Shown piece after piece: positions 3,282-49,099 of a stretch of DNA of 52,279 nucleotides; the first letter of the stretch is position 1, and each line of letters begins with the position of its first letter. The stretch spans positions 1 to 52,279 of the forward strand of contig CASDXH010000005.1 of assembly GCA_949285105.1 (NCBI GenBank), given 5' to 3'. Position numbers and translations under genes: made by a program. The notes below the pieces were generated by a model that saw nothing but the letters and a program-made list of their open reading frames with translations, ran no database searches and had not been told where the DNA came from. This DNA comes from an uncultured Mycoplasma sp. GTDB taxonomy: Bacteria > Bacillota_I > Bacilli_A > Mycoplasmatales > Mycoplasmoidaceae.

Positions 3282-3301
3282 TAATTATATAAAAAATTAT
3301 T

Positions 3302-3330
3302 GTGTTGCAATTTATTGCAGCACTTTTTTA
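3302..3330 (+). terminator. Terminator of surface gene 1
   Basis: GTGTTGCAA (3302-3310), TTTA loop, TTGCAGCAC (3315-3323), then a run of T. Nine-bp stem with one wobble pair, just after the stop codon. Confidence 0.85.
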
Positions 3331-3391
3331 TTTATCATAATCCTTTGAGTTTAATGTTTATATTTCCATTTTGTACTATTCTGCGTCTGGG

Positions 3392-3419
3392 TTGATTTTT
3401 ATCTTTGACTTAATATAAT
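3392..3419 (+). promoter_or_regulatory. Promoter of surface protein gene 2
   Basis: TTGATT (3392-3397), 16-bp spacer, TATAAT (3414-3419). About 40 bases around it match the gene 3 promoter with a single difference. Confidence 0.8.
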
Positions 3420-3448
3420 CAAAAAAACGAGTACAATTAGGATTAATT

Positions 3449-6400: not shown

Positions 6401-6454
6401 GGTATTGGTGTTTATATTTTAAGAAAGAATAAAATTAGAAGACTATTGAAATAG
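3449..6454 (+). CDS. Surface protein paralogue 2 (subgroup A), 1001 aa
   Basis: Second paralogue with the same layout as gene 1: N-terminal hydrophobic segment (IGMSAMAIPSLAVF), conserved NISTSIGPIV/VESRDWYG box near residue 75, a long extracellular region, then DWAPKFASIRERN, a C-terminal transmembrane helix and a basic tail. Collinear with gene 1 over its length, but its codons differ from gene 1 in blocks where genes 1 and 3 are identical, so it is diverging more independently. TGA is read as Trp throughout. It has its own promoter and terminator, so it is a single-gene transcription unit that could be switched independently. Function unknown. Confidence 0.85.
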
Positions 6455-6460
6455 ATTCAA

Positions 6461-6492
6461 ATATATTGCTACATAAAAGCAATATATTTTTT
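6461..6492 (+). terminator. Terminator of surface gene 2
   Basis: ATATATTGCT and AGCAATATAT pair around a 7-base loop (6461-6487), then T-rich sequence. Confidence 0.8.
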
Positions 6493-6511
6493 ATTACCAT
6501 TTTCTGTTGGG

Positions 6512-6539
6512 TTGATTTTTATCTTTGAGTTAATATAAT
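6512..6539 (+). promoter_or_regulatory. Promoter of surface protein gene 3
   Basis: TTGATT (6512-6517), 16-bp spacer, TATAAT (6534-6539), nearly identical to the gene 2 promoter. Confidence 0.8.
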
Positions 6540-6567
6540 CAAAAAAACGGCTGAAAATGGTGGATTT

Positions 6568-9525
6568 ATGAAAAATAAAATAAAATTAATGATTGCATCA
6601 AGTATTGGAATTTCTGCAATAATGGTTCCCTCAATTATAAGTTACACACAAAATAGTAATAGCGTTAATAATAATGTTAATTCATATAAGGTTGCAAAAA
6701 ATGATTTGGTTGCTCCTAGAGCTTTTAATTTTCAAGATAAAAAAAGTCTTGAAAATATTTCAACTTCTATTGGTCCAATAGTTTTAAAAGATGAAAAGAT
6801 TGTTGAAAGTAGAGACTGATATGGTTATGCTAACTGAACACTAGATGTATCTACAATTGATAAAACACAAACCACTGGATCAGTTTCAGTTCTTGATTGA
6901 GAATACTTACAAACAAGTGATAGTTTATTTTTAATCACATCAAACAGCTATTTAATTAAAGTAAATGCAACAACAGGGGAAGTGTTAGCTGTTGCTGATA
7001 AAACAAGTTCTGGAATTAATAATGCAGATAGACTTGGAGGAATCCAATATAATGACACTTTATATGTTTGAAACTCTAAATCCACTTCAACAACAGTATA
7101 TTCTGTAGATAGAAATACATTAAAGATGACTTCTAAATTTATAACTAATGGTTATTTAACTACAAATAAATTACAAAGAATAATTCCATTAGATGTTGGT
7201 TATAATATTGCAATAACTTCTGATAACAACAATGGAGTAATAACAACTTTTTCAAAGTTAAAATTAACTTTAGTTAATGATTCATTACAACAACTTGTTA
7301 ATAAACAAAAAGCAGAAGAAGCAAATAAACAAGAACTTGAAGTTACTCTTTCATCTTCACTTGAATGAAATAATATTTATATTGATGGTTTTTATAGATC
7401 TTCAACACAATCAACTTTATTATTCATTGATAATAAAATATATGAAATTTTTTTAAACAAAAATACACCAAATAAATCTAATATAAAAGAGATAATAACT
7501 AATACTCAAAATCCTCCAGTAACAGGGACTGCCAAACCTTTCAACTCTTCTTTTATTGATGCAAACAATAATGTAATTTTTAAAAGAGATGGAGATTCTA
7601 CAATTAGTAATTTAAGTTCAACAAACCAAATTACTACTCCAATAGATTTAAGCAATGCCAACAATAATGAATTAAAAGAATTAATTAAAAAAGACGCTAG
7701 TAAAAACAATAAATTAAAAGTTTATGGAGTTCCAACAGAAGAACATAAAAATGTAAACTCTGCAAACAATATATACCTTGTTGATCAAGATTCAAACTTT
7801 GGTACAGGTTTTACTTCAAACATTGCTAAACCAACAAACTTTTATAATGATAAATTAGAATTAAAACCAAATGATAATATATCAATTACAAACTTGCTAC
7901 CTTCGCAATTAACCATTAATAACTTTAAAATTAATGGTAATGGTGACCCAATTGATATAAGAAACAGTAATGCTAAATTTACAGTTGATGATAGAAAGGG
8001 TGAATTATCTTTATCTTTACTTTCAACACGTAATGCATGATATTCACAAATTAATTCAGTTAAAACTAAAACTTATTTACATTACACAAGTTCAGCTTTT
8101 AAGAAATTACAAAATGCTGTTACTTGAGCAAAAAATGTTTTCCAAAGTATTTTTCAGAAATATACACCTGGTCAAATAACTGAAGAATTACTTGATAAGA
8201 ATGCTGAAAAAATTATGCCAAGTTCTAACATCACAACAGGTAATGGATATACAAATATAAGTAGAAGATTTTTAATTGTTGAAAGAACTGATACAACAGG
8301 GATGATTAAAGTAGAAGGTACTTTTTCATATACTGATAAATACAACACTACTATTAACTACTCTTTAAGTCCTGAAACATTCAATGTTAAAGCTGCAACA
8401 GCAAATGATTATCATTTTGAATTTTATGGTCAAGGAACTGAAGGCAACGGAAATGGGCAAGACTATACAAATTTACCAGCAATTGATATTAACAATATAA
8501 CTGGTAACCCAACACTTGATGGTTTAAAAAAATATATTCCTTCATTTATTAATCCTGATCCAGATACTTTAGCTGAAGCATTTATTAAAACACAAGATTC
8601 TTATCCAATTGCTAAAGGATTAAGAAATATATATTTAAAAGATTGAGATAATGAAAATGGTACTGTAACTGTTGCTGTTGATTATGTTGGTTTGGATAAT
8701 AAAATTCCTTCAAGCTTTGCAAGAAAGTTTACAGGATTTAAAACACTTAATCAATCAAGAATAGATTTTAAGGGTACAAAGATTAATAAAGAGGAAGTTC
8801 CTTCAAACATCACTTCATTATTTCCAAATTTAGACACTACATTTATTAACATTAAAGATGTTTATCCAGAGTACAATGATAAAATTTCAGACGAGGTTAC
8901 AGATCTTGCAAAAACTTATTCTGAAGGAGTTGCTACATTAGCTGCAATGGGATATTCCCCAGTCGCTAAAGTAATTCATAGTGATAATGGAACACAATAT
9001 GGATTTATACAAATTGAACTAGATTATTCTCAGCCATCAACTCAAGATAGAAAAAAATTACCACAAAGTTTCTATAACCAATTTGGTTTAAAAGATGGAA
9101 AGATTACTCAAGTATATATTGGTTTTCTACCAGTAAGTACAAGATTTGGAATTTCGTTAAAAAGTTATAATTCACCAGAAGTTCAAAATGTTTTGACAAA
9201 TTATAATGTTGAGTCTGTTGTTGGATATGATGATCTTTTAAAAACTCTTGATTATAGAGGTTATTTGGATGGCGAAATAAAAATCCAAGATAGAGAATGA
9301 GATGGAGAAAAACTTAATTTCACAGTTACTGGTAAATCAGTAAAATACCCTTCAGTTGTTTCAACTTATAATTTCATAATCGACTGAGCGCCTAAGTTTG
9401 CATCAATTAGAGAAAGAAACTTAATTCTTGCTGTTTCATTAACACTAGTTGGAATTGGTGTTGTTGCATTTGGTATTGGTGCATATATTCTTAGAAAGAA
9501 TAAAATTAGAAGATTATTGAAATAG
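6568..9525 (+). CDS. Surface protein paralogue 3 (subgroup A), 985 aa
   Basis: Third paralogue with the subgroup A plan: basic start and hydrophobic segment, NISTSIGPIV/VESRDWYG box, Asn/Thr-rich ectodomain, DWAPKFASIRERN, one transmembrane helix and a basic C-terminus. The frame is intact with TGA as Trp, including one at 8644-8646 (KDWDNENG) that would look like a stop under the standard code. A stretch of at least 46 bases (9129-9174) is identical to gene 1 (2885-2930) while gene 2 differs at several positions, and the last 130 bases are also close to gene 1. This fits recombination between genes 1 and 3. Function unknown. Confidence 0.85.
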
Positions 9526-9532
9526 ATTTCAA

Positions 9533-9565
9533 ATATATTGTCATGATTTGGCAATATATTTTTTT
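9533..9565 (+). terminator. Terminator of surface gene 3
   Basis: ATATATTG (9533-9540) pairs with CAATATAT (9552-9559), followed by a T-run. Confidence 0.8.
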
Positions 9566-9864
9566 AATTATTGTTTGTTAGAGAATGAATATAAAATTAT
9601 TAAGTCTCAATTTTCCAACAAGTGAGTTCATAAAAGAAAAAAATATTTGGTTGATAAAACATTTATATTCTAAAAAATTTTAGATTGATATTTTGTTTTT
9701 TTTATCAAGTGTAGTATAGATATTTAAAAAAATGTAAGAATTTTTTAATAATTTATTTGTAGTTTACATAGAAAATATTAAGAAAAATTCAATATAATAA
9801 AAGTATAGACAATTTACTTATTTGTATGATAATTTTTCCGATAGTTTATGGAGGAATTTAGAGA
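9566..9864. other. AT-rich intergenic leader of the coiled-coil gene
   Basis: No gene seen. It contains a TATAAT at 9793-9798 that can serve as -10 for the next gene, and a strong ribosome-binding site GGAGG just before the start at 9865. Otherwise featureless AT-rich sequence. Confidence 0.5.
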
Positions 9865-10428
9865 ATGACAAAAATAAGTAAAAAGGATTTAATTAATAAT
9901 ATCAAAGCTCTTAAAAATATTGAAATCAAAAAGATTGAAAATTGTAATAGAGATTTTGCTTTTGAAGTTTATGGTGACATAAATGATTCTAAAGGAGAGG
10001 GTATGACTTTAGCAAAATTAACTGGAATTGTAGAAAAACTTAGTCTTGTTGTTGAAAACATCTCTGTAAAGGTTGATGGTTTAATCACTAAGGTTGATCA
10101 TTTATCTAATACAGTTGATACTTTATCTAATACAGTTCTGAATTTATCTAATAGGGTTGATGCTCTAACAGATAGAGTAGATAACCTGACTGATAGAGTG
10201 GACAACTTAACACAAAGAGTAGATGATTTGACTTATAGAGTGGATAACCTAACACAAAGAGTGGATGATTTGACAGACAGAGTTGACACTTTATATGATA
10301 GAGTTGATAACTTATATGAAACTGTAGAAGAAGGGTTTAAAAGTGTAAATAGTAGACTTGATAAAGTTGAAGCAGATGTTAGTAGAATCATGCAATGTCC
10401 AACTATTCAAAGAGAAATAAAAAATTAA
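9865..10428 (+). CDS. Coiled-coil heptad-repeat protein, 187 aa (DUF16/UPF0134-like)
   Basis: A short basic N-terminal region (about residues 1-55) is followed by a long coiled coil built of 7-residue repeats of the form VDNLTDR, at least eight in a row, and a C-terminal tail. There is no signal peptide or membrane helix, so it is probably cytoplasmic. The repeats are visible in DNA as a 21-bp unit, partly organised as 42-bp pairs (VDNLTQRVDDLT appears twice). The pattern resembles the DUF16/UPF0134 coiled-coil proteins of mycoplasmas; the assignment is by pattern, not alignment. It sits alone between the two surface-gene subgroups with its own ribosome-binding site and terminator. Function unknown; the coiled coil implies oligomerisation. 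Confidence 0.75.
   Translation: MTKISKKDLINNIKALKNIEIKKIENCNRDFAFEVYGDINDSKGEGMTLAKLTGIVEKLSLVVENISVKVDGLITKVDHLSNTVDTLSNTVLNLSNRVDALTDRVDNLTDRVDNLTQRVDDLTYRVDNLTQRVDDLTDRVDTLYDRVDNLYETVEEGFKSVNSRLDKVEADVSRIMQCPTIQREIKN
10140..10330 (+). repeat. Tandem 21-bp repeats encoding coiled-coil heptads
   Basis: Imperfect in-frame 21-bp repeats with the core GATAGAGTDGATAAC, coding for VDxLTxR heptads. Unit loss or gain would change coiled-coil length without a frameshift. Confidence 0.7.
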
Positions 10429-10435
10429 TTTTTTA

Positions 10436-10462
10436 AGAGTGATTTAGATCACTCTTTTTTAC
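10436..10462 (+). terminator. Terminator of the coiled-coil gene
   Basis: AGAGTGA (10436-10442), loop TTTAGA, TCACTCT (10449-10455), then six T. Confidence 0.85.
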
Positions 10463-10673
10463 TCAAATAAATTATTATTGAATTTGTTTGGTTTATATGT
10501 AATAAACGATTTATTTTTTGATTATATATTTATTATTTACATTATTAGATTGTGTACTAGTTTAAAATAACTCATCAATTAACTTTTTTGTTTTTAAAAA
10601 ATATTTTTGAGCGTTTATAATCATAAAATCTTAATAGAATTTCAATTAGTCTATTTTCTATATAATTGCAAAG

Positions 10674-10702
10674 TTGATTTTGATTTTCATATTCTTTAAA
10701 AT
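10674..10702 (+). promoter_or_regulatory. Promoter of surface protein gene 4
   Basis: TTGATT (10674-10679), 17-bp spacer, TAAAAT (10697-10702). Different in sequence from the subgroup A promoters. The preceding 10463-10673 is AT-rich with no gene. Confidence 0.6.
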
Positions 10703-10731
10703 TTATTTTATATGATTTGGAGTTGTGAATA

Positions 10732-13698
10732 ATGAACATAAAGAGCAAAATTAAATTACTAGTTGCTTCAACAGTAGGGTTAGCATCAGCATCACTACCT
10801 TTTATTTCTATAAATACAGTTGGTTCTAAATATTCAAGTGAAATTCAAAAATCTATAAACTATAATAACAATTCAATTAATAACCTTCAAACTACAAACG
10901 ATGGTACTTTTGCTGTTGAAACAGGACTTGAAAATATATCAACTTCTGTTGGTCCAATAGTATTAAATAATGATAAAAAAACAGTTGAAAGCAGAGATTG
11001 ATATGGGGCAATTAACTGAAGTGTGGATGTAAGTAAAATTGATCCAACTATGAATGCGACTGTATCTGATTGAGAATATTTACAAAAGGATGAAAATCTT
11101 TATTTAATAACATCAAATAGTTACCTTATTAAAATAAATGCTACAACTGGTGAAATTCTAGCTAAGGCTTCAAAAGATGAATCTGGAATATCTGCAAATT
11201 CAGATAAAATTGGTGGAATAGATTACAATGATACTTTGTATGTCTGAAGTTCAAAAACTGCTAATCCAACTATCACTATTGTAGATAGAAACACATTCAA
11301 AAAAACTGGTAGTCAAATAACTAATACCTCTTTTTCAAGTGAGAGATTAGTTAAAATTTTGCCAATTGAAGTTGGTTATAATCTTGCTGTAACAATTCCT
11401 CAAAATTCTAGTGATATGGTTAGTACTTTAACTTTTACGTTAGTTAATGATGAAATGAAAACTATTATAAATAATAATGGTCCTGGATCTCCTAGTAATT
11501 TAACTGATTTTGGTAAAACTGGAAAATTCATAATATCAAATCTAAATTTAAAATATCAATCAATCTTTATTGAATTTATAGATAGAACTCAAACACAATC
11601 TAAAATACTTTTTGTTGATAAAAAAGCATATGAAATAAAAACATATAAAAATGCAATCGAAAAATCAACAGTTAGTGAAATTACTCCGACAAGTAATGGT
11701 AATGGAAGTTTTATACCTGATAAGCAAATTAATTCTGCTTTCATTGATGCAAATGGATTAATTTACTTTAAAAGAAAGAATGAAACTTCAATTTGAAAGT
11801 TAACTACTTCAAATTCATTAGATAATTCATTTGGTTTGACAAATACATCAAATAAGGATTTAAATGCCATCACAAGTAAAGGTTCAAATGATCTAATGAT
11901 TTTTGGTGTTCCAACAGAACAAGATAAGAAAAGAAATTCTGCAAACAATTTATTTTTAATTGACCCTAAAAGTAAGTTTGCTACTGGTTCTCAATCAAAT
12001 GTTTTAAAAACAGAAAACTTTTATAGTTCACAAGTTGAACTTAAATATGTTGGGGCTCAATCAAAACTTCCTTCATTATATTCATTAAGAGATTTCCAAC
12101 TATCTTCTTTTGCTGATATTATTAATATCAATAACAATGATGCTAAATTTGAAATTGATGACAGACAAGGAAAAATTAAATTAACTATAACTTCTTATCG
12201 TCAAGCATGATATTCACCATTATCTAGTGTTAAAACTAAAGTACAAGTTAGATATGAGAATACAGTTACTAAATTGGAAAATGCTGTAAATTGAGCAAGT
12301 GATTCTTTATTTAAAGCGCACTTTGGTATATATACTCCAAACCAAATAACTGAAGGTGCATTAGAAGCTCGTGGTTCTGATATTATAGTTTCAAGTAGTA
12401 TTACAACAGCTAATGGGTATTCAAATATCCAAAGAAAATTTTTAATTACAAATATAAATAATTCAAAAGGCGAAATTAATTTACAAGGAACTTTCACATA
12501 TACTGATAAATATAACACTACTATTGTTTACTCATTACCAGACAAGAAATATATGATTAAACTAGCATCAAGTTCTTCATATGAATTTAAAATGTATGGT
12601 CAATCAAAACCAAACAACACTAGTGGTGATGCACAACCAATTGATATTTCAAATATAGCAAATAACCAAAATTTAAATACATTAAAAAACTTTGTTCCTT
12701 CGCTTGTAACATCAGATCAAGAATTTTTAGCTAAAGCTTTTATTGAAACCCAAAATTCATATCCTATAGATAATGGAATCAGAAGTATTTATATATCTGA
12801 AAGAAATGATCAGGATGGTAGTTTAACTGTTAATGTTGATTACAATGGTTTAGCAAACAATATTCCAAGTAGTTTTAAACAAAAATATATTGGTTTTAAA
12901 ACTGATACTCAAGCACGTGTAGATTTTACTGGTACTAAAACTTCATATGACAGTTTAGAAATAGAAGGAATAAAACAAGAATATGCTAATAATCATCAAG
13001 AGTTTTCTTTTATAGATATTAGTCAAAATGGATTATATCCAAACTATGCTAAAGAGATAGCAAATCCAAATGGTCAATTCTCAAATACATATTCTGTTGG
13101 TATTCAATCACTTGCAACTATGGGTTATACTCCAAAGGTTGAAATTACAACAGGTAATAGTGGAGTGGAATATGGTTATGTTGAAATATTATTAGATTAT
13201 TCAGCTCCAACTGATGAGAATAGAAAGAAATTACCAAACTCTTTATTAAATAGTTTTGGTTTAAAAGAAGGAAAAATAAAAGCTGTTTATTTTGGGTTTT
13301 TACCAATTAAAGATTTATATTGAGTGACATTAAAAAGTTACAATTCTAAAGATGTTCAAAATATAGTTACTTCTTATAAAGTTGATGAAGTTGTTGATAA
13401 CCAAGTGTTAATCAACTCTCTTGAACTAAATGGATATACAAGTAATGAGATTGTTATTAGAGATAAAACTTGGGATGGAGAAAAATTAAATTTCGTAATT
13501 TTTGCTCAATCACAAACTTATAACTCTGTTAATGGTCAATATCAATTTACAATTGACTGAGCACCACAGTTTGCAGCAATTAGAGAAAGAAACATAATTC
13601 TTGCAGCATCATTAACATTAGTTGGTATTGGTCTAGTTTCTTTTGGAATCGGTGCTTACATATTAAGAAAAAACAAAATGAGAAGAATGTTGAAATAA
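10732..13698 (+). CDS. Surface protein paralogue 4 (subgroup B), 988 aa
   Basis: Same overall plan as genes 1-3: N-terminal hydrophobic segment without lipobox Cys, NISTSVGPIV/VESRDWYG box, Asn/Ser/Thr-rich ectodomain, DWAPQFAAIRERN, C-terminal transmembrane helix and basic tail RKNKMRRMLK. Subgroup B features are the TTNDGTF stretch before the box and a different region around residue 750. It uses TGA for nearly all Trp, but a TGG occurs at about 13471 (KTWDGEK) where gene 5 has TGA. Its start and 3' end align with gene 5. Function unknown; surface location is inferred from topology. Confidence 0.85.
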
Positions 13699-13711
13699 CA
13701 TTCTTTTTTGT
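13684..13711 (+). terminator. Terminator of gene 4 overlapping its stop codon
   Basis: AGAATGTT (13684-13691) pairs with AACATTCT across the stop codon, followed by a T-run. The hairpin includes the last codons of the gene. The same arrangement occurs in gene 5. Confidence 0.8.
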
Positions 13712-13744
13712 TTGCTTATATTACATTTTTTAAAATTTTCAAGT

Positions 13745-13773
13745 TTGAAATTTGTTTTCATAATCTTTACAAT
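13745..13773 (+). promoter_or_regulatory. Promoter of surface protein gene 5
   Basis: TTGAAA (13745-13750), 17-bp spacer, TACAAT (13768-13773). Confidence 0.6.
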
Positions 13774-13803
13774 TATTTATGAAGTATCTAAATGGAGTTT
13801 AGA

Positions 13804-16794
13804 ATGAACATAAAAAATAAATTCAAATTATTTTTAACATCTTCTATTGGTGTTGTATCGATTGCTGCACCAGTTATTGCTGCAGGTTATAGCAATATAA
13901 ATAAAAATATTTCATCTAAAAATGTTGATTATGATTTACAAAAAAGTGAATTAAAAGCTTCGCAAACAACTAATGATGGTACTTTTGCAAAAGATACTGG
14001 ATTAGAAAATATTTCAACTTCTATTGGACCAATTGTTGTAAATAAAGATAATAAAACAGTTGAAAGTAGAGATTGATATGGATCTTTAAATTGAACATTA
14101 GATATTTCTACATTAGATACTACTTCAATTTCTATATCAAGTTGAGAATACTTACAAGAACAAGAATGATTATTCTTTATTACAAACAATAGTTATCTAG
14201 TTAAAGTTAATGCTTTGACTGGTGAAATTTTAGCAAGAGCTAGTCAAACAGAAAGTGGTATTAGTGCGAATTCAAATAGAATTGCTGGAATTGCTTTTAA
14301 TGATACTTTATATGTTTGAAGTTCTTCAACAGCTAATCCGCAAATAACTCCTGTAGATAGAAACACTTTGAAAGCAAGTCGGAATAAGATTACTAGTACA
14401 AGTTTTGATAATGCAAAACTTTTAGATTTAATTCCTCTTGATGTTGGATACAATTTAGCAATTAGTACAGAAAATGGTAATACAGATTTAAATAATATTA
14501 CTTCATTAAACTTTACTTTAGTTAATGATGAAGCGACTACTTTAATAAGACCTACAACAGCAAAGGTTGTAGAAAATAGACTTAATAACTTTGGACAGAC
14601 AGGTAAATTCACTGTTACTGGTTTAACTGGAAAATATTCTTCTGTTTTTATTCAGACAATTAATAGAAAACAAACAAGCTCTAAAGTCTTATTTGTAGGT
14701 AAAAATGCTTATGAAATAAGACTAAATAAAAATAACTATAGTAAAACGACTGTTACTGATTTGTTTAATGGTAAGAGCAATAACGGATTCAACATGACTA
14801 ACAATTTGAATTCAGCTTTCATTGATTCAAATGGTTTAATTTACTTCAAAAAAACTAATGAAAAATATGTTTGAACATTAAATACTCAAAATGCAATTGG
14901 CCAAGCGATAGATCTTTCTTTTGATACAAATAGTCAACTTAAGCAAATTGTTAATGGAACAAGTGGAACGATGAATAATGATGTAATGATTTATGGTGTT
15001 CCAACAGAAAAAAATCATGTTCAAAATTTGGCAAATGCTGTTTATATAGTAGATCCAAATTCTAAGTTTGCTACAGGGGCCAATAATAACATCCTTAAAA
15101 CAAATAACTTTACATCAGACCAAGTGACTTTATCATTGGTTTCAACAACAAATAATAGAGTTCCTTCGCAATTTAGTATTAATGATTTTAAATTGTCAGA
15201 TAATACTTTTGCATTAAAAAATGATGGAACAAATAAACCTAAGTTTGTTATTGATGACTTAACCGGAAAAATTGAACTTTCTGTTTTAGCTTTCAGACAA
15301 GCTTGATATTCTAACCTTTCTAGTGACACTACAAAAACAACAGTTAGATACACAAACACTGTTTCTAAAACTTCTGATGTTGTTAAGTTTGCTTCAAATC
15401 AAATTTTCCAAAGTCTTTTCCCTAAAAAAACAGCAAGCCAAATAAGTGAAGCTATGCTTGCTGAAAAAGGAGATAAGATTTTAGTATCTGGAACAATTGC
15501 TAATGGTGTTAATTACTCTAATGTCCAAAGAACTTTCTTAATATCAAATGTTAAAAATACAGAAGGTAAATTAGAAGTTCAAGCAACTTTTAGTTATACA
15601 GATAAATATAACACTACAATTCAATATGCATTAGCAGCCCATGAGTTTAGTGTTCAACCATCAACAAGTAGTGATTATAAATTTAAATTTTATGGACAAA
15701 CAAGTGATAATCCATCAACAACTCAAGAGATAGATATTACACAAATAAAAGTTGCTAATCCAACATTAAAGAATTTAGGTAACTTCATTCCTTCTCTAGT
15801 TACAAGAAATGAAGATGTATTGGGTGAAGCTTTTATTGAAGTTCAAGATTCTTATCCTATTGCTAATGGGATCAGAACAATAACTATTGATAATGTTAAC
15901 AATGAAGAAGGTTCTTTAGTTGTTAAAGTTCACTACAATGGTTTAGCTCCAACAACTAAAGCTGACTTTGAACAAAAATTTACAGGTTTTCAAACATCAC
16001 AAAGTGCTGCTGTAAATTTTACTGGTAATTTAACTGCTTATGATGACCTGCCTTCTCAAGGAATTAAGAATGCTTATAGTGATAAACAAAAGGATATAAA
16101 ATTCATTGATATAAGCCAACAAGGTTTATATCCTGGTTATAAAACAGAATTAGCTTCTGTTGATAAAGCTATAGCAAATACATATTCAACTGGTATTTCA
16201 AAACTTAGTACAATGGGTTATGATCCTAAGATTGAAGTTACATTAGGACCAAGTGGAGTAGAATTTGGTTATGTTGAAGTTACATTAGATTATGCAACTC
16301 CATCCCCTGATGGATCTAGAAAACCATTAAGTAAATCATTAAGAAATTTATTTGGTTTAAAAGAAGGTAAAACATCTGCTGTATTCTATGGTTTTTTACC
16401 AGTTAGTGAATTATATTCAGTTCAACTAAAAACTTATGGATCAAGAGGTGTTCAAAGTATTGTAACAAATTATAGGGTTGATGATGAGATTTATAATGGA
16501 ATGTTAATTAACTCATTAGACCTTAAAGGTTATACAAGTGATGAAATTAATATTAGAGAAAAAAGATGAGATGGCGAAAAGCTTCACTTTATTGCATTTG
16601 CTCAATCTGAAACATATAAATCAGTTAATGGTGAATATCAATTTACAATTGACTGAGCGCCTCAATTTGCAGCAATTAGAGAAAGAAACATAATTCTTGC
16701 AGCATCATTAACATTTGTTGGTATTGGTGTAGTTTCTTTTGGAATTGGTGCTTATATATTAAGAAAAAACAAAATGAGAAGAATGTTGAAATAA
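13804..16794 (+). CDS. Surface protein paralogue 5 (subgroup B), 996 aa
   Basis: Fifth paralogue, closest to gene 4. The start at 13804 (MNIKNKFKLF) is preferred over the ATG 12 bases upstream because it aligns with gene 4 and leaves a GGAG ribosome-binding site in front. Hydrophobic N-terminus (IGVVSIAAPVIAAGY), TTNDGTF stretch, NISTSIGPIV/VESRDWYG box, Asn/Thr/Ser-rich ectodomain, then DWAPQFAAIRERN, a transmembrane helix and a basic tail. The last roughly 170 bases, terminator included, are almost identical to gene 4, so this duplication is younger than that of subgroup A or has been homogenised. Function unknown. Confidence 0.85.
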
Positions 16795-26370: not shown

Positions 26371-26476
26371 TCAATCAAGTAAAATAATTTTGGTCTTGAA
26401 TTAACTTTTTTATAAAATAAATATGTGTTTCGTTTTTGTTTTATGATTTTATGTAATTGATATAGGAGTTTATATT

Positions 26477-27286
26477 ATGCAACCATTTGTTAAATGAGTA
26501 GGGGGAAAAAGGGAAGTTATTAAAAAATATTTATGCAACCATATTCCAAAGAAATTTAATAAATATTATGAACCATTTGTTGGAGGCGGTTCAATGTTAT
26601 TTTTTTTGAAGCCAGCTTCTGCTGTGATCAATGATATAAACAAAGAATTAATAACTTGTTACAATGTAATAAAAAAATACCCAAAACAATTTATAAAAAA
26701 TATGGAAATTTTTAAAAGTAAAAATAATGAAACAGACTACTATATCATTAGAGATACAGAATATGATAACGAAATAGATATTGCTTCTAGGTTTTTGTAT
26801 CTAAATAAAACTTGTTTTAATGGTATTTATAGAGTAAATTCTAAAGGTAAATTCAACGTTCCATATAACGGTGGAAATTCTACTTCTTTCTTAGACCCTG
26901 AAAACATAATAAATATCTCCAATTATTTTAATGATAAAAAAATTGAAATTTTGAATATTGACTTTGAGAAAGTAATTCAGATGACAAAAAAAGATGATTT
27001 CTTATTTTGTGATCCACCGTATGATTATGAGATAGGTTCTAAAGGATTTGATAGTTATTCAAAAAATGGATTTGGAACAGAAGGTCAAATAAGGTTATCT
27101 AAATCTTTGAAAGAGGCAGATAATAGAGGGGTTAAATGAATGCTAACAAATCATGATACTAAATTAATAAGAGATTTATATAGCGATTTCAAAATAATAA
27201 ATATTAAAACAAATAGATTCATAAACTCCAATGCTAACAAAAGAAAGAATACAGGCAATGAGGTTATTATAAAAAACTATGAGTAA
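26477..27286 (+). CDS. dam: GATC adenine-N6 methyltransferase (DpnII/MboI-type)
   Basis: Modification enzyme that methylates adenine, most likely in GATC. Alpha-class (D12/Dam) motifs: N-terminal FVKWVGGKR, SAM-binding FVGGGSML starting at residue 34, and the catalytic DPPYDYE starting at residue 179. 269 aa, typical. The specificity is inferred from the partner, which overlaps it by 8 bases and is a DpnII-family endonuclease. It reads TGA as Trp (VKWVGG, VKWMLT), so it is functional only in a UGA-Trp host. The pair forms a complete type II restriction-modification unit at the left edge of the defence island, just after gatB. Confidence 0.92.
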
Positions 27287-28088
27287 TAAAAGAAATTTAG
27301 ATGAATTTTTTAGCACTTTAAAGATAACAAACAAAGAACTTGGTGACTATGTAGACTTTAAGAAAGTTGAGAATCTAGTTTTGGAAAACGAACTTAAGTT
27401 AAATATTTTGAATACTCTAATATGTAATAATGAGGAAGAATTTAAAAAACGACTCAAAATTATTTATAATAACTCTCCTGATGCTTTTTCTATAATAAAT
27501 TTGTTAATAGCAGAAAGGGATAATCTTGATTATTTTATATACGATGGAAATAATTTTCAACTTTCAGAGATTACTTCTGATATAAATATGCTATTTGTAT
27601 TTTTTAAAGAAACAAACCTTTTAAACATGATTATTAATGGAAGGATAAAAAATTTTATAGACTATGTTTTTGGTGTTGAAGTTGGAATGGACACAAATTC
27701 AAGAAAAAACAGATATGGGCAAAAATCTGAAAAAATACTATCAAAAATGATTGATGATGCTTTTAAAAATTCAAGTCATATAAAAATTTGTTATCAGTAC
27801 CAAATTAAAGATAAAAAATTCGATGTTGTTTTAGAGAATCTAAAAAATTATAAACGAGTTTTTTTGGAAAATTCTTTTTATAATAATGGAGGTTCTAAGA
27901 TATCTGAAACATATAGATCTTTCTCAAAAGTGAATAAAGAGGTTTCAAATGACAATAATAAATTCTTTTGGGTATTAGACGGAAAAGGTGCAAAAACTAT
28001 AAAAAAATTATTATCCAATTCAAATGATAATGACTTTATTGTTAATACGTCTGAAATCATAAGCAAAATAAAAGAAGTAATAGAATAG
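27279..28088 (+). CDS. DpnII-family type II restriction endonuclease
   Basis: Predicted to cut unmethylated GATC. From memory, the protein matches the DpnII family in the segment YVFGVEVGMDTNSRKNRYG and in the PD-(D/E)XK-like part KKFDVVLENL followed by FLENSFYNNGGSKISE, ending with WVLDGKGAKTIKK. 269 aa, close to the family length. It overlaps the methylase by 8 bases, the usual translational coupling of such pairs. Its Trp codon is TGG (near 27968), unlike the TGA in core genes. Specificity is inferred from the family, not measured. Confidence 0.9.
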   Translation: MSNKRNLDEFFSTLKITNKELGDYVDFKKVENLVLENELKLNILNTLICNNEEEFKKRLKIIYNNSPDAFSIINLLIAERDNLDYFIYDGNNFQLSEITSDINMLFVFFKETNLLNMIINGRIKNFIDYVFGVEVGMDTNSRKNRYGQKSEKILSKMIDDAFKNSSHIKICYQYQIKDKKFDVVLENLKNYKRVFLENSFYNNGGSKISETYRSFSKVNKEVSNDNNKFFWVLDGKGAKTIKKLLSNSNDNDFIVNTSEIISKIKEVIE

Positions 28089-28321: not shown

Positions 28322-28661
28322 CTATAAAAAATACTTTATAACTAACGCTATTATTTCATTTCTTTTATTGGCTCATTGTTCGTTATTTTCAAATGCATAT
28401 TTTAGTGCACCAAAAATATAGTTCACTGAAGGATTAGAATAAGATTTAGTTCCTTCTTTATTTTTAAACCCATTAACAATTTTTGAATAATACTTATCAT
28501 TTGCTCATCCCAAATCATAAACGAATTCATCAATGGTTTTATTCATCATGTTTCTTAGATCCAATAAAAAATTTGATACATCAATATCAATTTTTTTAGC
28601 CCCATTTTCAAAGATCGAAGGGGGGGGGGTTAAATTTCCCCATATTTTTATTCTTTTTCAT
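28322..28661 (-). pseudogene. Small HTH-like gene, frame broken at a poly-C(10) tract (possibly phase-variable)
   Basis: The start ATG at 28661 lies inside the end of the PAPS-reductase-like gene (14-base overlap). Ten codons in, the coding strand has AA followed by ten C, which is ten G on the plus strand at 28620-28629. With ten C the frame hits TAA after about 21 residues. With nine C the product would be 112 aa and read cleanly to TAG at 28324. The restored protein has a segment resembling an XRE-type helix-turn-helix: LRNMMNKTIDEFVYDLGWAN followed by YYSKIVNGFKN and NPSVNYIFGALKYAFE. An internal ATGATG near 28548 could also start an HTH-only form. Either this is an ON/OFF contingency gene caught OFF, a decayed gene, or a homopolymer sequencing error. 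The HTH call is by eye. Confidence 0.65.
28620..28629. repeat. Homopolymer G(10) tract inside a coding region
   Basis: Ten consecutive G on the plus strand (ten C in the gene). I saw no comparable G/C run elsewhere in this AT-rich window. Its position, about ten codons after a start codon, is typical of slipped-strand phase variation. Confidence 0.9.
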
Positions 28662-30027
28662 TTTTGTATTTTTCTTTCAACTTTTTTTCTTTTATTCTGA
28701 TTTCATCTATTTCTTTTTTATTTGTTTTATGTCCTGTTTTAAAGAATTCCTGAGCTTTATTAAATTCTTTTACATCATATTTTCAGTTAGTTGAATTATT
28801 ATCACTTAATTCTATTTGTACCATCACTCTAATTAAGTTAATACCTAAATTTTGGTATCATTCATCAATTTTTTTTCTTCTTTTATAATAGAACTTCATG
28901 TATTTTTCATCATTTCTAATCTTTATGTTCATATCTGCTATGATGTTGTACATTCCTGTTCTTCATATTTGAGATTCGTATAGATTTGGCATGTACTCAT
29001 ATAATTTTTCAAACCTATTTCTATACTTGTATTCATTACATAGTTTATCGTATTTAGAATATTTGTTTGCTATATATTCTTCTAATGAACTTCCAAGTGG
29101 ACACGCTGTACAACCAAGCCTTGAAAATCTTAATTCGTTAATATTATGTTTACTTGGTTGATATCCATATGCATCATTAATATTTAATTTATTTTCTTTA
29201 ATATATGTTCATATATCATTTGTATTTCAGATAGAAAGTGGTCTACTCATTGGGTGGTTTTGGTTGTATATGTTACAACCATTTTTTATTCATGATTGTT
29301 TTCTAAGCTCTGATTCGTTTGCCATAGTTCCAATAAAACTTGGTCTTTTATCGTGTTTTAATCCACCTTTAACGTAATCACAACATTTTTCGCTAAAGAA
29401 GTAATTTATTCTATTTCCTTGTTCATCAATGAAATAAGTCATTTCAGAATCTAATAAAAATAGTCTTTGCTTTGATATTTTATATTTTGCACTTGGTTCT
29501 ATCCCAAATGCTATTCTTGATAGTAAAGTTTTAGTTTTGCTTCTTTTAAGTCTATTAAGCATTGTTGATATCTTTTTTGAATAGATTGGATAACCTTTTG
29601 ACTTTAGGATATCAATTCATGGTTTAATTGGTTTAACAAATAAAGGGTTTTTAATGTATGGATATTGATCTTGATATTGTTCTATAGTTGATTTAATAAA
29701 TTGGACTGTAGAAGGAAAAGTTATTTCTATAGCATAGGCTGGCACCAAATAAACTTCTGAATTTATTTCTTTGTGTACTTTTGCTACTAAATCTAACAAT
29801 ACTGTAGAATCTTTACCACCGCTAAAGGAAACAAGAACTTCCTTTTTATTTTCTTTTTGACATCAGTTTAAAAAATCAATTATCTTTTCTTTTGCTCAAA
29901 TTAATTTATCATTATATGGCATGTGATTACACAATTCCTCATAATGATCTTTTCTAGTTTGTTGTAAAGAATGTTTTTCATTACTTTGTTTTAAATTGAT
30001 TAATACATTAACATTCTTTACTTCCAT
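28648..30027 (-). CDS. PAPS reductase/DndC-like protein, 459 aa
   Basis: Member of the PAPS-reductase family of PP-loop ATP pyrophosphatases. Motifs: SGGKDSTV at residues 69-76 (nucleotide-binding PP-loop), GYPIYSKKIS, FFSEKCCDYVKGGLK, GTMANESELRKQSW, RPLSIWNTNDIW and RLGCTACPLG with two cysteines near the substrate or Fe-S site. A Lys/Glu-rich tail ends the protein. Several TGA codons are read as Trp. The family includes sulfate-assimilation enzymes, DndC of DNA phosphorothioation, and many phage and defence-island proteins of unknown role. I see no other sulfate-assimilation or dnd gene here, so assimilation is unlikely and a nucleic-acid-related role is inferred. It is transcribed divergently from the MORC-Z1 operon and overlaps the small HTH-like gene. 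Confidence 0.85.
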
Positions 30028-30080: not shown

Positions 30081-30112
30081 TCATTAAAACCATCTATAGT
30101 TGGTTTTAATGA
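30081..30112. promoter_or_regulatory. 32-bp near-perfect palindrome between divergent defence operons
   Basis: TCATTAAAACCA (30081-30092) and TGGTTTTAATGA (30101-30112) are perfect reverse complements, and the 8 bases between are palindromic except for the outer pair, so 30 of 32 positions are symmetric. It lies about 54 bases before the PAPS-reductase-like start and about 68 before the MORC-type start. There is no T-run directly after it. A symmetric site between divergent genes suggests a dimeric repressor operator; a cruciform or transcript hairpin is the alternative. Confidence 0.65.
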
Positions 30113-30179
30113 TTAAGTCTTTTTCGTATTATCATTTTTGATTTTTGTTAAATACATAAAAACTCAAAATGAGGGAAAA

Positions 30180-32018
30180 ATGAACGAAATAAAAACTAAA
30201 ACTTTAACGGCTACTTATCTATATATGAAGAATTTTTCAAATATACCATCAACTAATTGGCTTTCGATATCTGAATTTATTGATAATAGTATTTCTTCTT
30301 TTTTAGGAAAAAATACTGGTGGTAGTTTAGAGGGATTAATAATTAAAATCACTTATGATATAACTGATTCAAATAGTAAAAAGTTGATTATTGAAGATAA
30401 TGCAAAAGGAATGGAACCAGAAGAACTTCTTGATGCGATGCAACCATATAGTCACCATAATGAAGGTAGATCAAAAGATTATAACCAATATGGGGTTGGT
30501 ATGAAGTCTGGTTGTTTTTTTAATGGTGAAGATGCATATATTTATTCAAAAACTGAAGCAAATAAAGAATATATTGTTGAATTTAAAACATCAGATAAAG
30601 AAGGCGGAGAACCTATTGTACTTTCTGTTGTTGAATCGCTTGATAATAAAGTAAAAACAAATTCAGGAACTACTATAATTATTGATAAGCTTTATAATAA
30701 AAGATCAACAGTTTCAGATAAGGACCTTAATGAGTTACTTGAAGCTTTGTCATGAAGATATGGGAAATTAATAATTGATAGAGGCTTAGAAATTTATTTA
30801 AAAAAAGTAAATAATAACGATGAAAAATTCCAAAAATATGATAAAAAGGTTTCTGGTTTCAAACAATCATCTATTAGCCTTCAAAGTTTCATAGAAATTA
30901 ATGGATTTAAAGATGAAGAAAAAGAAAGAGTTATTAAAAAATGTAAAGACTCCATAACTAAGGTTAAAAATGATAATATAGGTAACAAATTATTATCATT
31001 ATTTTGTGATAAATACTTAAATAATGAAATCTTGGAAACGGAACTACTAATAAACGTTAATAATGACAGCAAACCAGATACAGAGTCAGAAGAAAGTAAT
31101 GATAAAAAGCTATACTATATACCCAAAGATATAAATGATAGAGATGAAAAACTAAAAAGCAAAGAATACAATGTAGTACTAAAATTTGGTGTTTTAAAAT
31201 GTAAAAAAGGAGAATTTAGTAAATATAATGGGGTAACTACTTATCATATTGATAGAGCAATAAATCATGGTCCAAATAATAGAAATACTGCAAAGGATTC
31301 TAGGAGTATCCCTTTTAGAGTCACCAATAATGGCTCTGGTGGAGACCCAACATGAAGACGTTTATGAGGTGAAATCAATCTAACCGGAATAGAAGTCCCA
31401 GATACAAATAAATCCCAATTCCAGTGATCTCAAAATGGAAAAAGTGACCTTCAAAATGTACTACACGATATACATAAAGATATGAAACCACTTTTATCAG
31501 CGATGCAAAGCTGTGAAGAAATAAATTCAAAAAACGATACAAGCAATAAAGATGAATTGAAAAAAGTTTCTGATTTTCAAAAACATGATAAGATTTTTGA
31601 CGACAACATAATTGTTATCGATTTTAATAAAGATTTTTTAGGTTATCATATAAAAAATTCTAATCGTACTATAAAAATACAGGAAGCAAAACAAGGTCCA
31701 AAAAGTAATTTTTTGTATATTAATGAAAATGAAAAAGACTGCTCTACTGCAACAATTAATATAGATTCAGAGATATGAAAACCTTTTATTTATGATTCTG
31801 ATGAAGATAGAAAAACAAAGTTTAGGGCTAAAATTGTTTATAAACTTGTTTTGGCTTTAGTGCTTGCAAATAATAGAGAACTACTAGAACATGTTATTGA
31901 TTCTAATCAGTCCAATTTAACAAAAATATTATCATCTAGCAATTTAAAAAATAAGAATTATGAATTAATACATGTCATTGATGATGTATTAAAACTAATC
32001 GAACCAAAAGAAGAATAA
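30180..32018 (+). CDS. MORC/MutL-like GHKL ATPase, 612 aa
   Basis: ATP-binding protein with the Bergerat (GHKL) fold in its first roughly 200 residues: N-box EFIDNS (Glu32 to Asn36), G1 box EDNAKGM around residue 73, G2 box YGVGMKSG at 104-111. This family arrangement is the prokaryotic MORC type found in predicted restriction systems, where ATP-driven dimerisation would act on DNA. The remaining 400 residues are Lys/Asp/Asn-rich with no motif that I recognise. The start at 30180 follows GAGGG; an earlier ATG at 30138 lacks a ribosome-binding site. Trp is coded by TGG once (30258) and otherwise by TGA. First gene of an operon with the Z1 protein, one base apart. Confidence 0.85.
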
Positions 32019-32019
32019 T

Positions 32020-33495
32020 ATGGCAAAGTTCGTAAGTTATATTAAGTATAGTATTGAAGATTATAAGAAACAAGTTGTTGATAGTGATTTTATAAAAACA
32101 AATATTAGTAATATCTTTGCTAATGATAACATTGATAAAGAATCTATTTTATGTGTTGGAGAAGTGCAATCAGGAAAGACAAAAAATATAATTGAGTGTG
32201 TGAAGTATGCAATAGATAATTGTTATGACATAATAATAATCCTTGGTGGAGTCACAAACATTCTTCTAAACCAATCTAAAAAAAGATTGGTTGATGAATT
32301 ACACACTCACAAAACTAAAGCGAAAATTATCGGAGTAGAAGATAATTTATTTTTTAACCTAGAATCATGTTTTATTAAGAATATCACATCAGTTATTTTA
32401 ACCCTTAAGTCAAGTTATCAACTTGATGAACTTTTTAATTCAATTAACGACTGTAATATCGCAAATAAAAAAATACTTATAGTAGATGATGAATGTGACT
32501 TTGGTAGTATTAATGTTTCCAAAAACAAAGAAGATTCATCTGATATTTATAATAAAATTTCTAAATTATACTCAAGAATTTCATATGGTAAATTATTATC
32601 TTTTACAGCTACTCCTTTTTCAAATATATTATCTGATAAGTCACTAGAATTAAAACCAGATAGAGTTGTGGCTCTGATTTCATATAGCGATTATTGTGGT
32701 TGTGAATCATTCAATAATTCGAATTGCTATCTTTTAATTGAAAATGATAAGAGTGATTTTGATAGAAATGTTTTAAAAAAAACATTTATATATTGGTTGC
32801 TATGCACAAGTGTGATGTTGATAGACTTTGATAGGGGCATATATGATGGAAGCACCAAGTCACAGTTACTAATAAATGTTTGTTATGAAAATGATAAACA
32901 AAAAGAAATATTATATGAATTGCAAAATATCTTTGAAGAATTTATACATAACGATCTTTATAATATTAACTTTTGAGTTCACCCCTTTCTTTCTAAAATA
33001 AGTTTTGATACATCTCTTTATGAAAAAGACAAAATAGTTAGTAAAGTAAAAGATATTTATTCAAGTATTTTTAAAAACAAAAAAGAGAGTTTTGTTTTAT
33101 TAAATAGACAAGGAAATGGGTCTGAAAAAAATTATAAAAATGAGCAAGACTTTACCATCATTGTCTCAGGTTTCATGGCATCAAGAGGAGTTACTTTTGA
33201 AAATTTAATATGTGAATTATTTTTAAATAACCCAGAAAACTGCGTGAAAATCGACACCTTGTTGCAGAAATGTAGATGGTTTGGAAATAGAAAGAAAACT
33301 ATTAACTATATGAGAATAATACTAAACAAGGTGATCAAAGATTCTTTAATTCATGCACATAAATATATAAATCTTTTCAGGAAAGGAAATGTGTACACAT
33401 TACATGAATTGAAAAATGCTTTAATAGACTTAGATCATGAAAGTAGAAAAAATAAATGAAAGGTTGAGTCAACAGAAAATGGAAAAAGAAAATAA
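32020..33495 (+). CDS. Z1-domain superfamily II helicase-like ATPase, 491 aa
   Basis: Z1-type protein of MORC-linked restriction systems. Visible motifs: Walker A GEVQSGKT (residues 47-54), Walker B-like VDDECD (155-160), TATP (196-199), then the Z1 block with SRGVTFENL (from 388) and QKCRWFGNRK (around 416-425), close to the family pattern SRG-T-L...RWFGYR. At 491 aa it seems compact; many Z1 proteins that I know are much longer, so the accessory C-terminal part appears to be missing. Two Trp are TGG and two TGA; the last TGA (33457) is followed by 11 more residues before TAA. It overlaps the next gene by up to 59 bases. Confidence 0.88.
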
Positions 33496-34339
33496 TAGAG
33501 TAATTTTGGTAAATGATGATGAAAGTGATAAAAAAGGTATTGGTATTATAACTAGTTCAACTAGAACAATTGAAAGTATTAAGAAAATAAAAAAGACTTA
33601 TATTAAGTACGGAGGACGAGCTAGCATTATTGATGATTCTGGTAAAAATATAATTGTAGAGTTTATAGAATTTAACTCAATGCCAATAGATATTTTAAAA
33701 TCAATTACAGAAGAAATTTCTGAAAAAATTAAAGATGAAAATATTAGCATTGAAGAAATGCTTGAATTTATTTTTGACTTATTTTCAACTCATAGGTTAG
33801 AAAGAGATTATGAAAAGAAATTGATTGGAGATTTGGGTGAAGCAATCTTTATGATTGAGGCTAAAAACAATGGAATAAATGCTGACCAAATGATTAGAAA
33901 AGAAGATAATTCGTTATATGATTTTGTTTTCGGAAAAACATATGTTGAAGTTAAAACATCATCCAAATATCAAAATGAAATAAAGATAACTGAGAGACAA
34001 ATTTCTGAGTCAAATGATAGAGTTATAGTTGTTTCAAATTTTCAAAAGTTAGAAGATAAGTTAAATATTATTGATTTATACAAAATTCTTAATAGTAGTA
34101 ACCCGCTAATTTTAGAAAAGAAAGCAGCTTATGAAAATGACTTTAATGACCAAGCATTTGCTGAGGTAATGAGAAATTTCACTGTTGATTTAGATAATAC
34201 AGAAGTATTCATTTTAGAAGATAATGTGCTTCCAAAAATTGAGATAAAACATAGGGGAGGATTAAAAGAAATATCATATACAGTGGATATTACGAAAACT
34301 AATAGAACTAACATTAGTGATCTTAAAAAATATCTATAA
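33437..34339 (+). CDS. PD-(D/E)XK motif nuclease-like protein (DUF4420-like)
   Basis: Likely the nuclease of the MORC-Z1 operon. The core reads GDLGEAIF (Glu at about residue 138), YDFVFG (Asp162) and YVEVKTSS (Glu171-x-Lys173), the E...D...ExK arrangement of PD-(D/E)XK enzymes. An N-terminal region of about 120 residues precedes it and a beta-rich C-terminal part follows. 300 aa from the first ATG. An alternative ATG at 33480 (MEKENNRVIL) would reduce the overlap with the Z1 gene from 59 to 16 bases, and I cannot decide between them. No methyltransferase follows. Family assignment is from motif order and neighbours. Confidence 0.8.
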   Translation: MKVEKINERLSQQKMEKENNRVILVNDDESDKKGIGIITSSTRTIESIKKIKKTYIKYGGRASIIDDSGKNIIVEFIEFNSMPIDILKSITEEISEKIKDENISIEEMLEFIFDLFSTHRLERDYEKKLIGDLGEAIFMIEAKNNGINADQMIRKEDNSLYDFVFGKTYVEVKTSSKYQNEIKITERQISESNDRVIVVSNFQKLEDKLNIIDLYKILNSSNPLILEKKAAYENDFNDQAFAEVMRNFTVDLDNTEVFILEDNVLPKIEIKHRGGLKEISYTVDITKTNRTNISDLKKYL

Positions 34340-34427: not shown

Positions 34428-34433
34428 TTATTT

Positions 34434-34625
34434 GCTGGCACTCCTAGCTAAAGGGAGCCAAAAATACCGGGCAGCATGTGATATAAATGTTACAAATAAA
34501 ATAATAGGGTATTATGTGAAAAAGTTACGGTTCTTTATTTAGCAAAAACCGTTCTTATAATAAAAAAACACCAAGTTAAACATGGACATGAAATTTGGAG
34601 AATAATTCAAATTTCATGTTTTTTG
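34434..34625 (+). ncRNA. Candidate structured small RNA 1 (about 190 nt)
   Basis: Intergenic sequence richer in G and C than its flanks. Predicted stems by eye: GGCACTCC (34437-34444) with GGGAGCC (34453-34459); AATACC (34463-34468) with GGTATT (34508-34513), enclosing TGTGATA/TGTTACA (34477-34483 and 34488-34494); ACGGTT (34527-34532) with AACCGT (34547-34552); and a terminator hairpin at the 3' end. It has a TATAAT upstream and no open reading frame. It does not match the SRP RNA, tmRNA, RNase P RNA, purine or THF patterns that I know. Identity unknown. Confidence 0.55.
34586..34624 (+). terminator. Terminator of small RNA 1
   Basis: ACATGAAATTTG (34586-34597) and CAAATTTCATGT (34608-34619), perfect 12-bp stem, then T-run. 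Confidence 0.9.
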
Positions 34626-34836
34626 TTTATTGATATGTATAATTCTTTTGCAGAGGGATATAATAAAACATCAGGCAATAAATAAATATATGAAACTTGA
34701 ATATATCTTTTGCAAGCAAAAAAGTAGGCACATGTTATTTTGATTTTAGAAAACACCATATTTTTTACTTGTATATATAAAAATAAAAAATACTATAAAT
34801 TATAGTAATTTTCTTTAAAATACTATATAAAACGTG

Positions 34837-34992: not shown

Positions 34993-35105
34993 ATTTTTAT
35001 TTTCGAAAAATTTTAAAAAATCTTCGTAAAAAATCGATATTTTTTAACGCTAACATGTTTTACAAAAGCAGGATAAACTATAAGCACTTTTTTAAGGAGA
35101 TTAAT

Positions 35106-35858
35106 ATGTTATGCGAATTTAAAAAATATTTAAGCAATGTTAAGTGTTATTCCAAAACAACAATAAAAACTTACATGAAGTACATTGATAAGCTAGAGGA
35201 AAATAATTACGACTATAAGGTAATGTTGAATCTACACAGGGATAATTCAAACAATACTAAAAGAGTAATGTTAAGTGCAATTAAAGCTTTTTACAAATTC
35301 ACTAAAGATGACAGGTTTTATGAAATCGAACTACCAAAAAAAGAAAAGAAGGTTTTAGATTATTTATCTTATAAAGAATATCAATCAATTATTAAACACT
35401 TATATAGAAAACCTACAAAAAACTTTTCAAAAATAATAATTACAAAATTACTTTTTGAAACTGGCATTAGAAGTTCAGAGCTTTTGAACATAGAAATAAA
35501 AAATATAGATGAAAATAAAATCAAGATATTAGGAAAAAACAACAAGGAAAGAATTGTTTACATTTCTCATTCATTCAAAGAAATAATAAGTTCATATATA
35601 AAAACAAGAAAGGGACAAAAGTATTTATTTAATTTTTCATATAAATACTTACATAAAGTTATTGGTTCATTCCAAAAAGTAATTAATAAGAAATTAACCC
35701 CCCATATGTTCAGAAGAGGATTTGCAACCCACTGTATTGACAACAATATTGGGATATATGAATTATCGCTTATGATGGGTCATGATAACATTAATACTAC
35801 AAGAACTTATCTAAGAAATGAACATAGAATAGAGTTAATGAAAAACATATTCAATTAA
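35106..35858 (+). CDS. Tyrosine recombinase (XerC/D-like)
   Basis: Site-specific recombinase, probably resolving chromosome dimers or mobile DNA. The N-terminal SAM-like domain (about residues 1-95) opens with EFKKYLSNVKCYSKTTIKTY. Catalytic residues: Arg122 (TGIRSSEL), His200 and Arg203 (PHMFRRGFATH), His226 (MMGHDNI) and nucleophile Tyr235 (RTYLRNEH). 250 aa, shorter than the roughly 300 of classic XerC/D. The start at 35106 is preferred to an ATG at 35055 because AAGGAGA lies just before it. It sits between the defence island and mnmG, so it may be either the chromosomal Xer enzyme or linked to island mobility; its position next to conserved mnmG favours the former. Confidence 0.88.
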   Translation: MLCEFKKYLSNVKCYSKTTIKTYMKYIDKLEENNYDYKVMLNLHRDNSNNTKRVMLSAIKAFYKFTKDDRFYEIELPKKEKKVLDYLSYKEYQSIIKHLYRKPTKNFSKIIITKLLFETGIRSSELLNIEIKNIDENKIKILGKNNKERIVYISHSFKEIISSYIKTRKGQKYLFNFSYKYLHKVIGSFQKVINKKLTPHMFRRGFATHCIDNNIGIYELSLMMGHDNINTTRTYLRNEHRIELMKNIFN

Positions 35859-49024: not shown

Positions 49025-49099
49025 TGGCAGGGGTAGCAGGACTCGAACCCACAACACGCGGATTTGAAGTCCGCCGTTCTACCATTGAACTATACCCCT
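49025..49099 (-). tRNA. tRNA-Trp (anticodon UCA)
   Basis: 75-nt tRNA with 7-bp acceptor stem AGGGGTA/TACCCCT, D-arm GTTCAATGGTAGAAC, anticodon stem GCGGA/TCCGC with loop CTTCAAA (anticodon TCA), T-arm GTGGGTTCGAGTCCTGC and encoded CCA end. UCA reads UGA (and UGG by wobble) as Trp, the molecular basis of the recoding seen in nearly every gene here. Followed by its own terminator. Confidence 0.96.

Follow-up and report, generated by a model that had tools for sequence, protein, structure and literature searches.

The window analyzed here is a stretch of 52,279 nucleotides from an uncultured Mycoplasma sp. (assembly GCA_949285105.1, contig CASDXH010000005.1), whose open reading frames were read with TGA as Trp (code 4). 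Between two genes that start divergently at ATG 30027 (minus strand, PAPS-reductase-like) and ATG 30180 (plus strand, HATPase) lies a 32-bp palindrome, which we interpret below as the putative operator of a small helix-turn-helix (HTH) protein encoded nearby. The locus comprises the following features, in window positions.

28325 to 28661, minus strand: HTH controller gene, out of frame in the assembly; start at 28661 or 28643, conserved domain at 28325-28618
28620 to 28629, minus strand: C10 homopolymer, candidate phase-variation tract between the controller-gene start codon and the domain
28648 to 30027, minus strand: PAPS-reductase-like PP-loop protein (PF01507; weak DndC/BrxP similarity), first gene of the minus-strand operon
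30081 to 30112, no strand: near-perfect 32-bp palindrome; in the closest relative, G022, 34 bp are symmetric
30083 to 30088, minus strand: candidate -10 box TTTAAT of the PAPS-HTH operon, inferred from sequence; mirror image of the plus-strand box
30088 to 30105, no strand: conserved 18-bp putative operator core, AACCATCTATAGTTGGTT (consensus AACCAACTATAGTTGGTT); one half is degenerate in the window
30105 to 30110, plus strand: candidate -10 box TTTAAT of the HATPase operon, abutting the putative operator; TATAAT or TAAAAT occupies the same place in HNH and Dam promoters
30180 to 32018, plus strand: HATPase (MORC/MutL-like GHKL; HATPase_c_3) protein, first gene of the plus-strand operon
32020 to 33495, plus strand: Z1-domain helicase-like protein, plus-strand operon
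33437 to 34339, plus strand: weakly DUF4420 (PD-(D/E)XK)-like protein, below the gathering score

The palindrome, TCATTAAAACCATCTATAGTTGGTTTTAATGA, matches its reverse complement at 30 of 32 positions; its arms are perfect over 12 bp, and a single T/T pair breaks the symmetry. This agrees with an earlier, sequence-only reading of the same DNA, which had also placed the element centrally between the two divergent starts (its center, 30096.5, is 7 bp off the midpoint of the gap) and without a terminal T-run (none directly follows either arm). It is the top-scoring 16-half palindrome of the window; 4 out of 300 dinucleotide-shuffled versions of the 52-kb window scored equally high, and none of 5,000 shuffled versions of the 152-bp intergenic region did. 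The full sequence is present as a single copy in the 1.06-Mb genome (67 contigs), and a search of the gap for a second full operator copy found none. A sigma-70 consensus scan of the gap returned no promoter, the consensus being uninformative for Mollicutes. The RNA of either strand could fold into a hairpin at the palindrome (z of -4.4 and -3.8), so symmetry alone does not decide between a DNA site and an RNA structure, and comparative evidence was needed.

Conservation of the 18-bp core

The PAPS-like protein is present in 38 of 95 genomes of the family, and the core AACCAACTATAGTTGGTT or a near variant of it lies 5' of PAPS homologs in nearly all loci of three genera (the GTDB genus of the window includes Malacoplasma records). 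About 15 related Mollicutes have a homolog with the core just 5' of it, down to ~50% identity, while the neighbor upstream varies from the stop codon of a DUF4420 gene to an SprT-like gene, a divergent HTH gene, or a divergent HATPase gene. The sequence-only reading had named a lack of symmetry at orthologous loci as evidence that would count against an operator; instead, nearly all HTH-bearing relatives have the 18-bp core upstream of their ortholog. An alignment of 26 sites shows no variation at A5, C7, T14, and G15 and almost none in the central TATA. The left or the right half is often degenerate, and uncompensated changes outnumber compensated ones 39 to 9. Conservation of the outer palindrome arms is confined to the window and G022; these arms are possibly a pair of -10 boxes. 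Judged by this alignment, the conserved operator is the inner 18 bp only (30088-30105) and not the full 32-bp palindrome.

In G022, whose PAPS-like protein is 89% identical to that of the window, the intergenic region and the palindrome are near-identical up to the HATPase start codon, and the HATPase protein is only 26% identical. From this comparison, the effector operon was apparently exchanged at the start codon under a conserved control region. Across the HATPase-Z1-DUF4420 operon (window 30180-34339 versus 11529-15961 of L055 in G022), identity is only 26 to 35%, with the control region and first codons almost identical.

The family genomes were scanned for the core at ≤2 mismatches, with the reversed pattern as a control. 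The total of 25 sites (17 for the control) divided into 14 sites versus 2 in genomes with the system and 11 versus 15, i.e., background, in the remaining genomes. All but one of the 14 sites (13/14) lie upstream of a PAPS, an HATPase, or an HNH_2 endonuclease gene. The core also precedes HATPase-Z1-DUF4420 operons and HNH endonuclease genes; at the HNH genes, its end is mostly ~10 to 13 nt before the ATG, and in most cases a TATAAT/TAAAAT-like box follows on from it directly. The genome of the window contains exactly one other site within this threshold, at C20:5507, before an unlinked HNH gene. Four genomes without the HTH gene (G089, G093, G087, and G091) had no site wherever upstream sequence existed. 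The HNH_2 endonuclease at G000:C20:4474-5493 (L073) has partial similarity, below the cut-off, to the NCBIfam model of phosphorothioated-DNA restriction endonucleases, and a sulfur-modification link between it and the DndC-like PAPS gene is conceivable.

The decisive, independent test was an order-wide homolog search of 320 genomes, which recovered distant controller homologs (37 to 42% identity) in another Mollicute family. All six retrieved loci lie beside Dam-type methyltransferase genes (Dam/DpnII-type restriction-modification [R-M]). In 5/6 of them, a palindrome with 2 to 3 mismatches precedes both the Dam and the HTH genes, and its distance is fixed at 12 nt to the Dam start (5/5) and 33 nt to the HTH start (5/5). 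The HTH gene of this family has a second, weaker copy (e.g., GAACTATGGTTG), flanked by the first copy on one side and a GATAAT-like box on the other. In the window, Dam-type methyltransferase and DpnII endonuclease genes (26423-28088) adjoin the controller gene, arranged and oriented as they are in L146 of the other family.

The putative controller gene and its repeat tract

The controller gene is present at nearly all core-bearing loci. In the window, it lies ~1.5 kb from the palindrome, downstream of the PAPS-like gene, with which it apparently forms one transcription unit. Its product is ~98 to 120 aa long, the size of a small (about 75 to 110 aa) stand-alone HTH C-protein, and the best-conserved part of the family is a putative recognition segment, W.N.KYY..I.NG. 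The AF2 model (pLDDT of 84) is helical, with HTH-like helices. When it was re-aligned to PDB candidates, C.Esp1396I and C.EcoT38IS came first and C.BclI was also listed (Z of 3.9 to 5.0), a modeled likeness that weakly supports a relationship with C-proteins. P0001 as a lone query had no match in the genome contigs, but the alignment-based search did find matches.

Among 14 HTH genes surveyed in the Malacoplasma clade, 12 carry a C/G tract of 8 to 12 or a (GA)14 tract between the start and the domain, 4 of them in frame and 8, including the C10 gene of the window, out of frame, in draft assemblies whose tract lengths sequencing error could alter. The two tract-free genes are intact. A repeat between start and domain that occurs in both in-frame and out-of-frame lengths among relatives is the pattern of a slipped-strand phase-variable gene. 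No tract was flagged at the HTH genes of the other family, and on this comparison the tract looks like an addition in the Malacoplasma clade. Two loci (L060, 3944-4290; L061, 11040-11400) have a controller gene with (GA)14 where relatives have poly-C/G, different repeats in the same place.

A probable C-box-like operator and its alternatives

On these comparisons of sequence, we read the palindrome as a C-box-like operator of a phase-variable, C-protein-like controller of a multigene defense regulon, with a probability of roughly 0.85. As with C-proteins, the HTH gene is linked to R-M genes, both at the six loci of the other family and in the window, where it is beside Dam-DpnII and MORC-Z1. 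As with C-boxes, the site is a pseudo-symmetric operator with a central TATA upstream of the controller's own gene and of enzyme genes. The half-site departs from the GACT/GAC consensus, being AAC (or ATC) in the 26 sites, and we therefore call the system C-protein-like rather than a member of the GACT class. Two proposals of the sequence-only reading gain from these data. That the HTH product of the slippery gene is the ligand is supported by the co-occurrence of site and HTH gene in two families. That an operator serves both directions is supported by the core at orthologous, regulon, and second-family promoters, but the conserved site has shrunk to the inner 18 bp.

In the proposed mechanism, a controller dimer would read the 18-bp core as two CAAC half-sites around TATA, and the core would serve two divergent promoters, PAPS-HTH (minus strand) and HATPase-Z1-DUF4420 (plus strand). 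Direct binding, dimerization, and the sign of control are all inferred here. At Dam and HNH genes, where the operator adjoins a -10 box ~20 nt before the start, a bound dimer would be expected to block RNA polymerase; at the HTH gene of the other family, where the operator is centered 42 nt before the start, activation would be possible, as in C-proteins. For the window, we somewhat favor simultaneous repression of both divergent operons, because the extra symmetry of the arms puts a TTTAAT in equivalent positions on the two sides. Slippage in C10 would switch the controller off, as in the assembly, and so release the whole regulon, including the unlinked HNH nuclease gene.

Several observations weigh against this interpretation. 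The sixth locus of the other family (L147) has only degenerate copies at both places, with 5 mismatches each; no operator was found at the Dam-DpnII operon of the window, where the best candidate has 7 mismatches; and the HNH genes of G023, G026, G029, and G030 lack a site, while that of G020 has a 3-mismatch copy though no HTH gene was found in its incomplete genome. As to the controller, a small helical domain can reach a Z of 5 by chance, Foldseek with the model found no PDB match at E ≤ 0.001, and searches of Pfam, NCBIfam, PHROGs, and PDB sequences with the HTH family gave chance-level matches only (best in Pfam, HTH_19 at 0.021; none significant, the XRE/HTH_3 family of C-proteins included). 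Finally, farther-out -10 boxes are available (TATTAT at 30129-30134 on the plus strand and TATATT on the minus strand), which would put the site near an activator position; activation would be favored if these boxes were used.

Given that both strands fold well, the palindrome could instead act in RNA, as a hairpin that stops or interrupts transcription, either an intrinsic terminator or an attenuator and perhaps active in both directions; several PAPS loci have a T-rich run after the core, with the site placed just past the upstream stop codon. Between divergent genes, however, there is nothing to terminate, and in L056 and L006 a distinct terminator-like hairpin already lies shortly before the motif. 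The gap to the start codon is fixed for Dam and HTH genes and nearly fixed for HNH genes, and Rfam recognized no RNA family at the palindrome. A hairpin would keep its pairing and leave its loop free to vary, and the sites do the opposite, with pairing often broken and the loop TATA conserved, which argues for recognition as DNA rather than as an RNA stem. We consider an RNA element very unlikely, and the terminator reading was rejected on the broken pairing and the divergent context.

If the core is read as DNA, its reader might still be some other regulator, with the HTH protein merely a neighbor, as the G020 site before an HNH gene without a detected HTH gene would allow. Two families nonetheless show site and HTH gene together, amid differing neighboring genes and, in some loci, with the site immediately before the HTH gene itself; the four HTH-less genomes named above also lack the site wherever upstream sequence existed. 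We consider another regulator quite unlikely. An Xer-like tyrosine recombinase gene lies at 35055-35858 of the window, between the defense operon and mnmG. The 12-bp arms around an 8-bp center resemble the core site of such an enzyme, and L063 and L064 have copies on both sides of the PAPS gene, as might be expected of a recombination site bounding an invertible segment or cassette. The palindrome is nevertheless single-copy in its genome, the copies in relatives each precede a start codon and keep only ~18 bp, and the sites are associated with the HTH gene, most of them having no Xer-like gene seen beside them. On these grounds, with the copies following start codons and the HTH gene and the palindrome present only once, a recombination site was rejected as extremely unlikely.

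Comparison with known systems

The closest parallel is C.Esp1396I, whose optimal site is GAC-TATA-GTC and whose operators are O_M before the M gene and O_L plus O_R before the C/R genes (PMC3758141). Both systems have a small HTH protein encoded with the enzymes, two short half-sites around a central TATA (AAC-TATA-GTT here; in its general form, NAC-TATA-GTN, the core matches the C.Esp1396I site), and, here in the other-family loci, one operator for the methyltransferase gene and another for the controller gene. They differ in that the half-site is AAC instead of GAC, the HTH protein described here is too divergent for Pfam or NCBIfam to recognize, the Malacoplasma sites precede no methyltransferase gene but MORC-Z1, PAPS-like, and HNH genes, and the controller gene contains a slippage tract.

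HsdC of Mycoplasma gallisepticum is likewise a Mollicute controller of restriction genes, a C-protein and inferred repressor whose site overlaps the -10 box (PMC5282649), but it belongs to a type I operon and its direct-repeat site, (GTGTTAN5)2, is unrelated to CAACTATAGTTG. RptR, a small repressor encoded inside an Escherichia coli defense island with a site overlapping the -10 box (PMC12255303), resembles the controller as a small regulator gene in such an island; it differs in organism, in its 6-bp TAGCTA palindromes in direct repeats, and in that no phase variation is reported for it. Phase-variable R-M genes of Mollicutes, and phasevarions, share the principle of a simple-sequence tract that toggles a defense gene, exemplified by an (AG)12 tract in the methyltransferase gene of Mycoplasma mycoides subsp. 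capri (PMC3498834). In contrast to that example, the repeat here affects a transcription regulator, and its slippage would be expected to toggle several operons at once, including an unlinked one. MORC/MutL-type restriction operons (PMC2292703) and MZA defense systems share the combination of a GHKL ATPase, a helicase-like partner (Z1), and a predicted nuclease, but here the operon is linked to a PAPS-reductase-like gene and the putative operator. The Mza models matched weakly, the only match being a partial one to MzaC (51.8 bits versus a cut-off of 1500), which does not place the operon in MZA.

We see about an even chance that a C-protein-like controller with its own operator class (CAAC-TATA-GTTG), shared with Dam/DpnII systems of the other family, became in the Malacoplasma clade a phase-variable master switch of a dispersed defense regulon comprising a sulfur-transfer-like PP-loop enzyme, a MORC-Z1-nuclease operon, and an unlinked HNH nuclease. 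If so, a single-base slippage would let a minimal-genome bacterium hedge its entire anti-phage and anti-DNA-uptake state in one step. Mollicutes have few known transcription regulators, and how defense islands are regulated is poorly understood in general. The present analysis yields a defined candidate protein, a defined site, a predicted regulon in several species, and a putative built-in genetic switch, which makes the switching by slippage of entire defense programs, rather than single methyltransferases, directly testable in a reduced-genome bacterium. A literature search, with limited coverage of subscription papers, found no paper describing this operator or controller.

Other features of the window

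Downstream of the plus-strand operon, positions 34430-34640 are GC-richer and end in a strong terminator-like inverted repeat (34586-34619); they possibly encode an uncatalogued small RNA, and Rfam gave no credible match there. Five plus-strand open reading frames of ~1,000 aa each (279-16794) are perhaps a paralogous surface-protein family. On the minus strand at 49025-49099, ARAGORN calls a tRNA-SeC (anticodon TCA), which is more likely a tRNA-Trp(UCA) reading UGA in this code.
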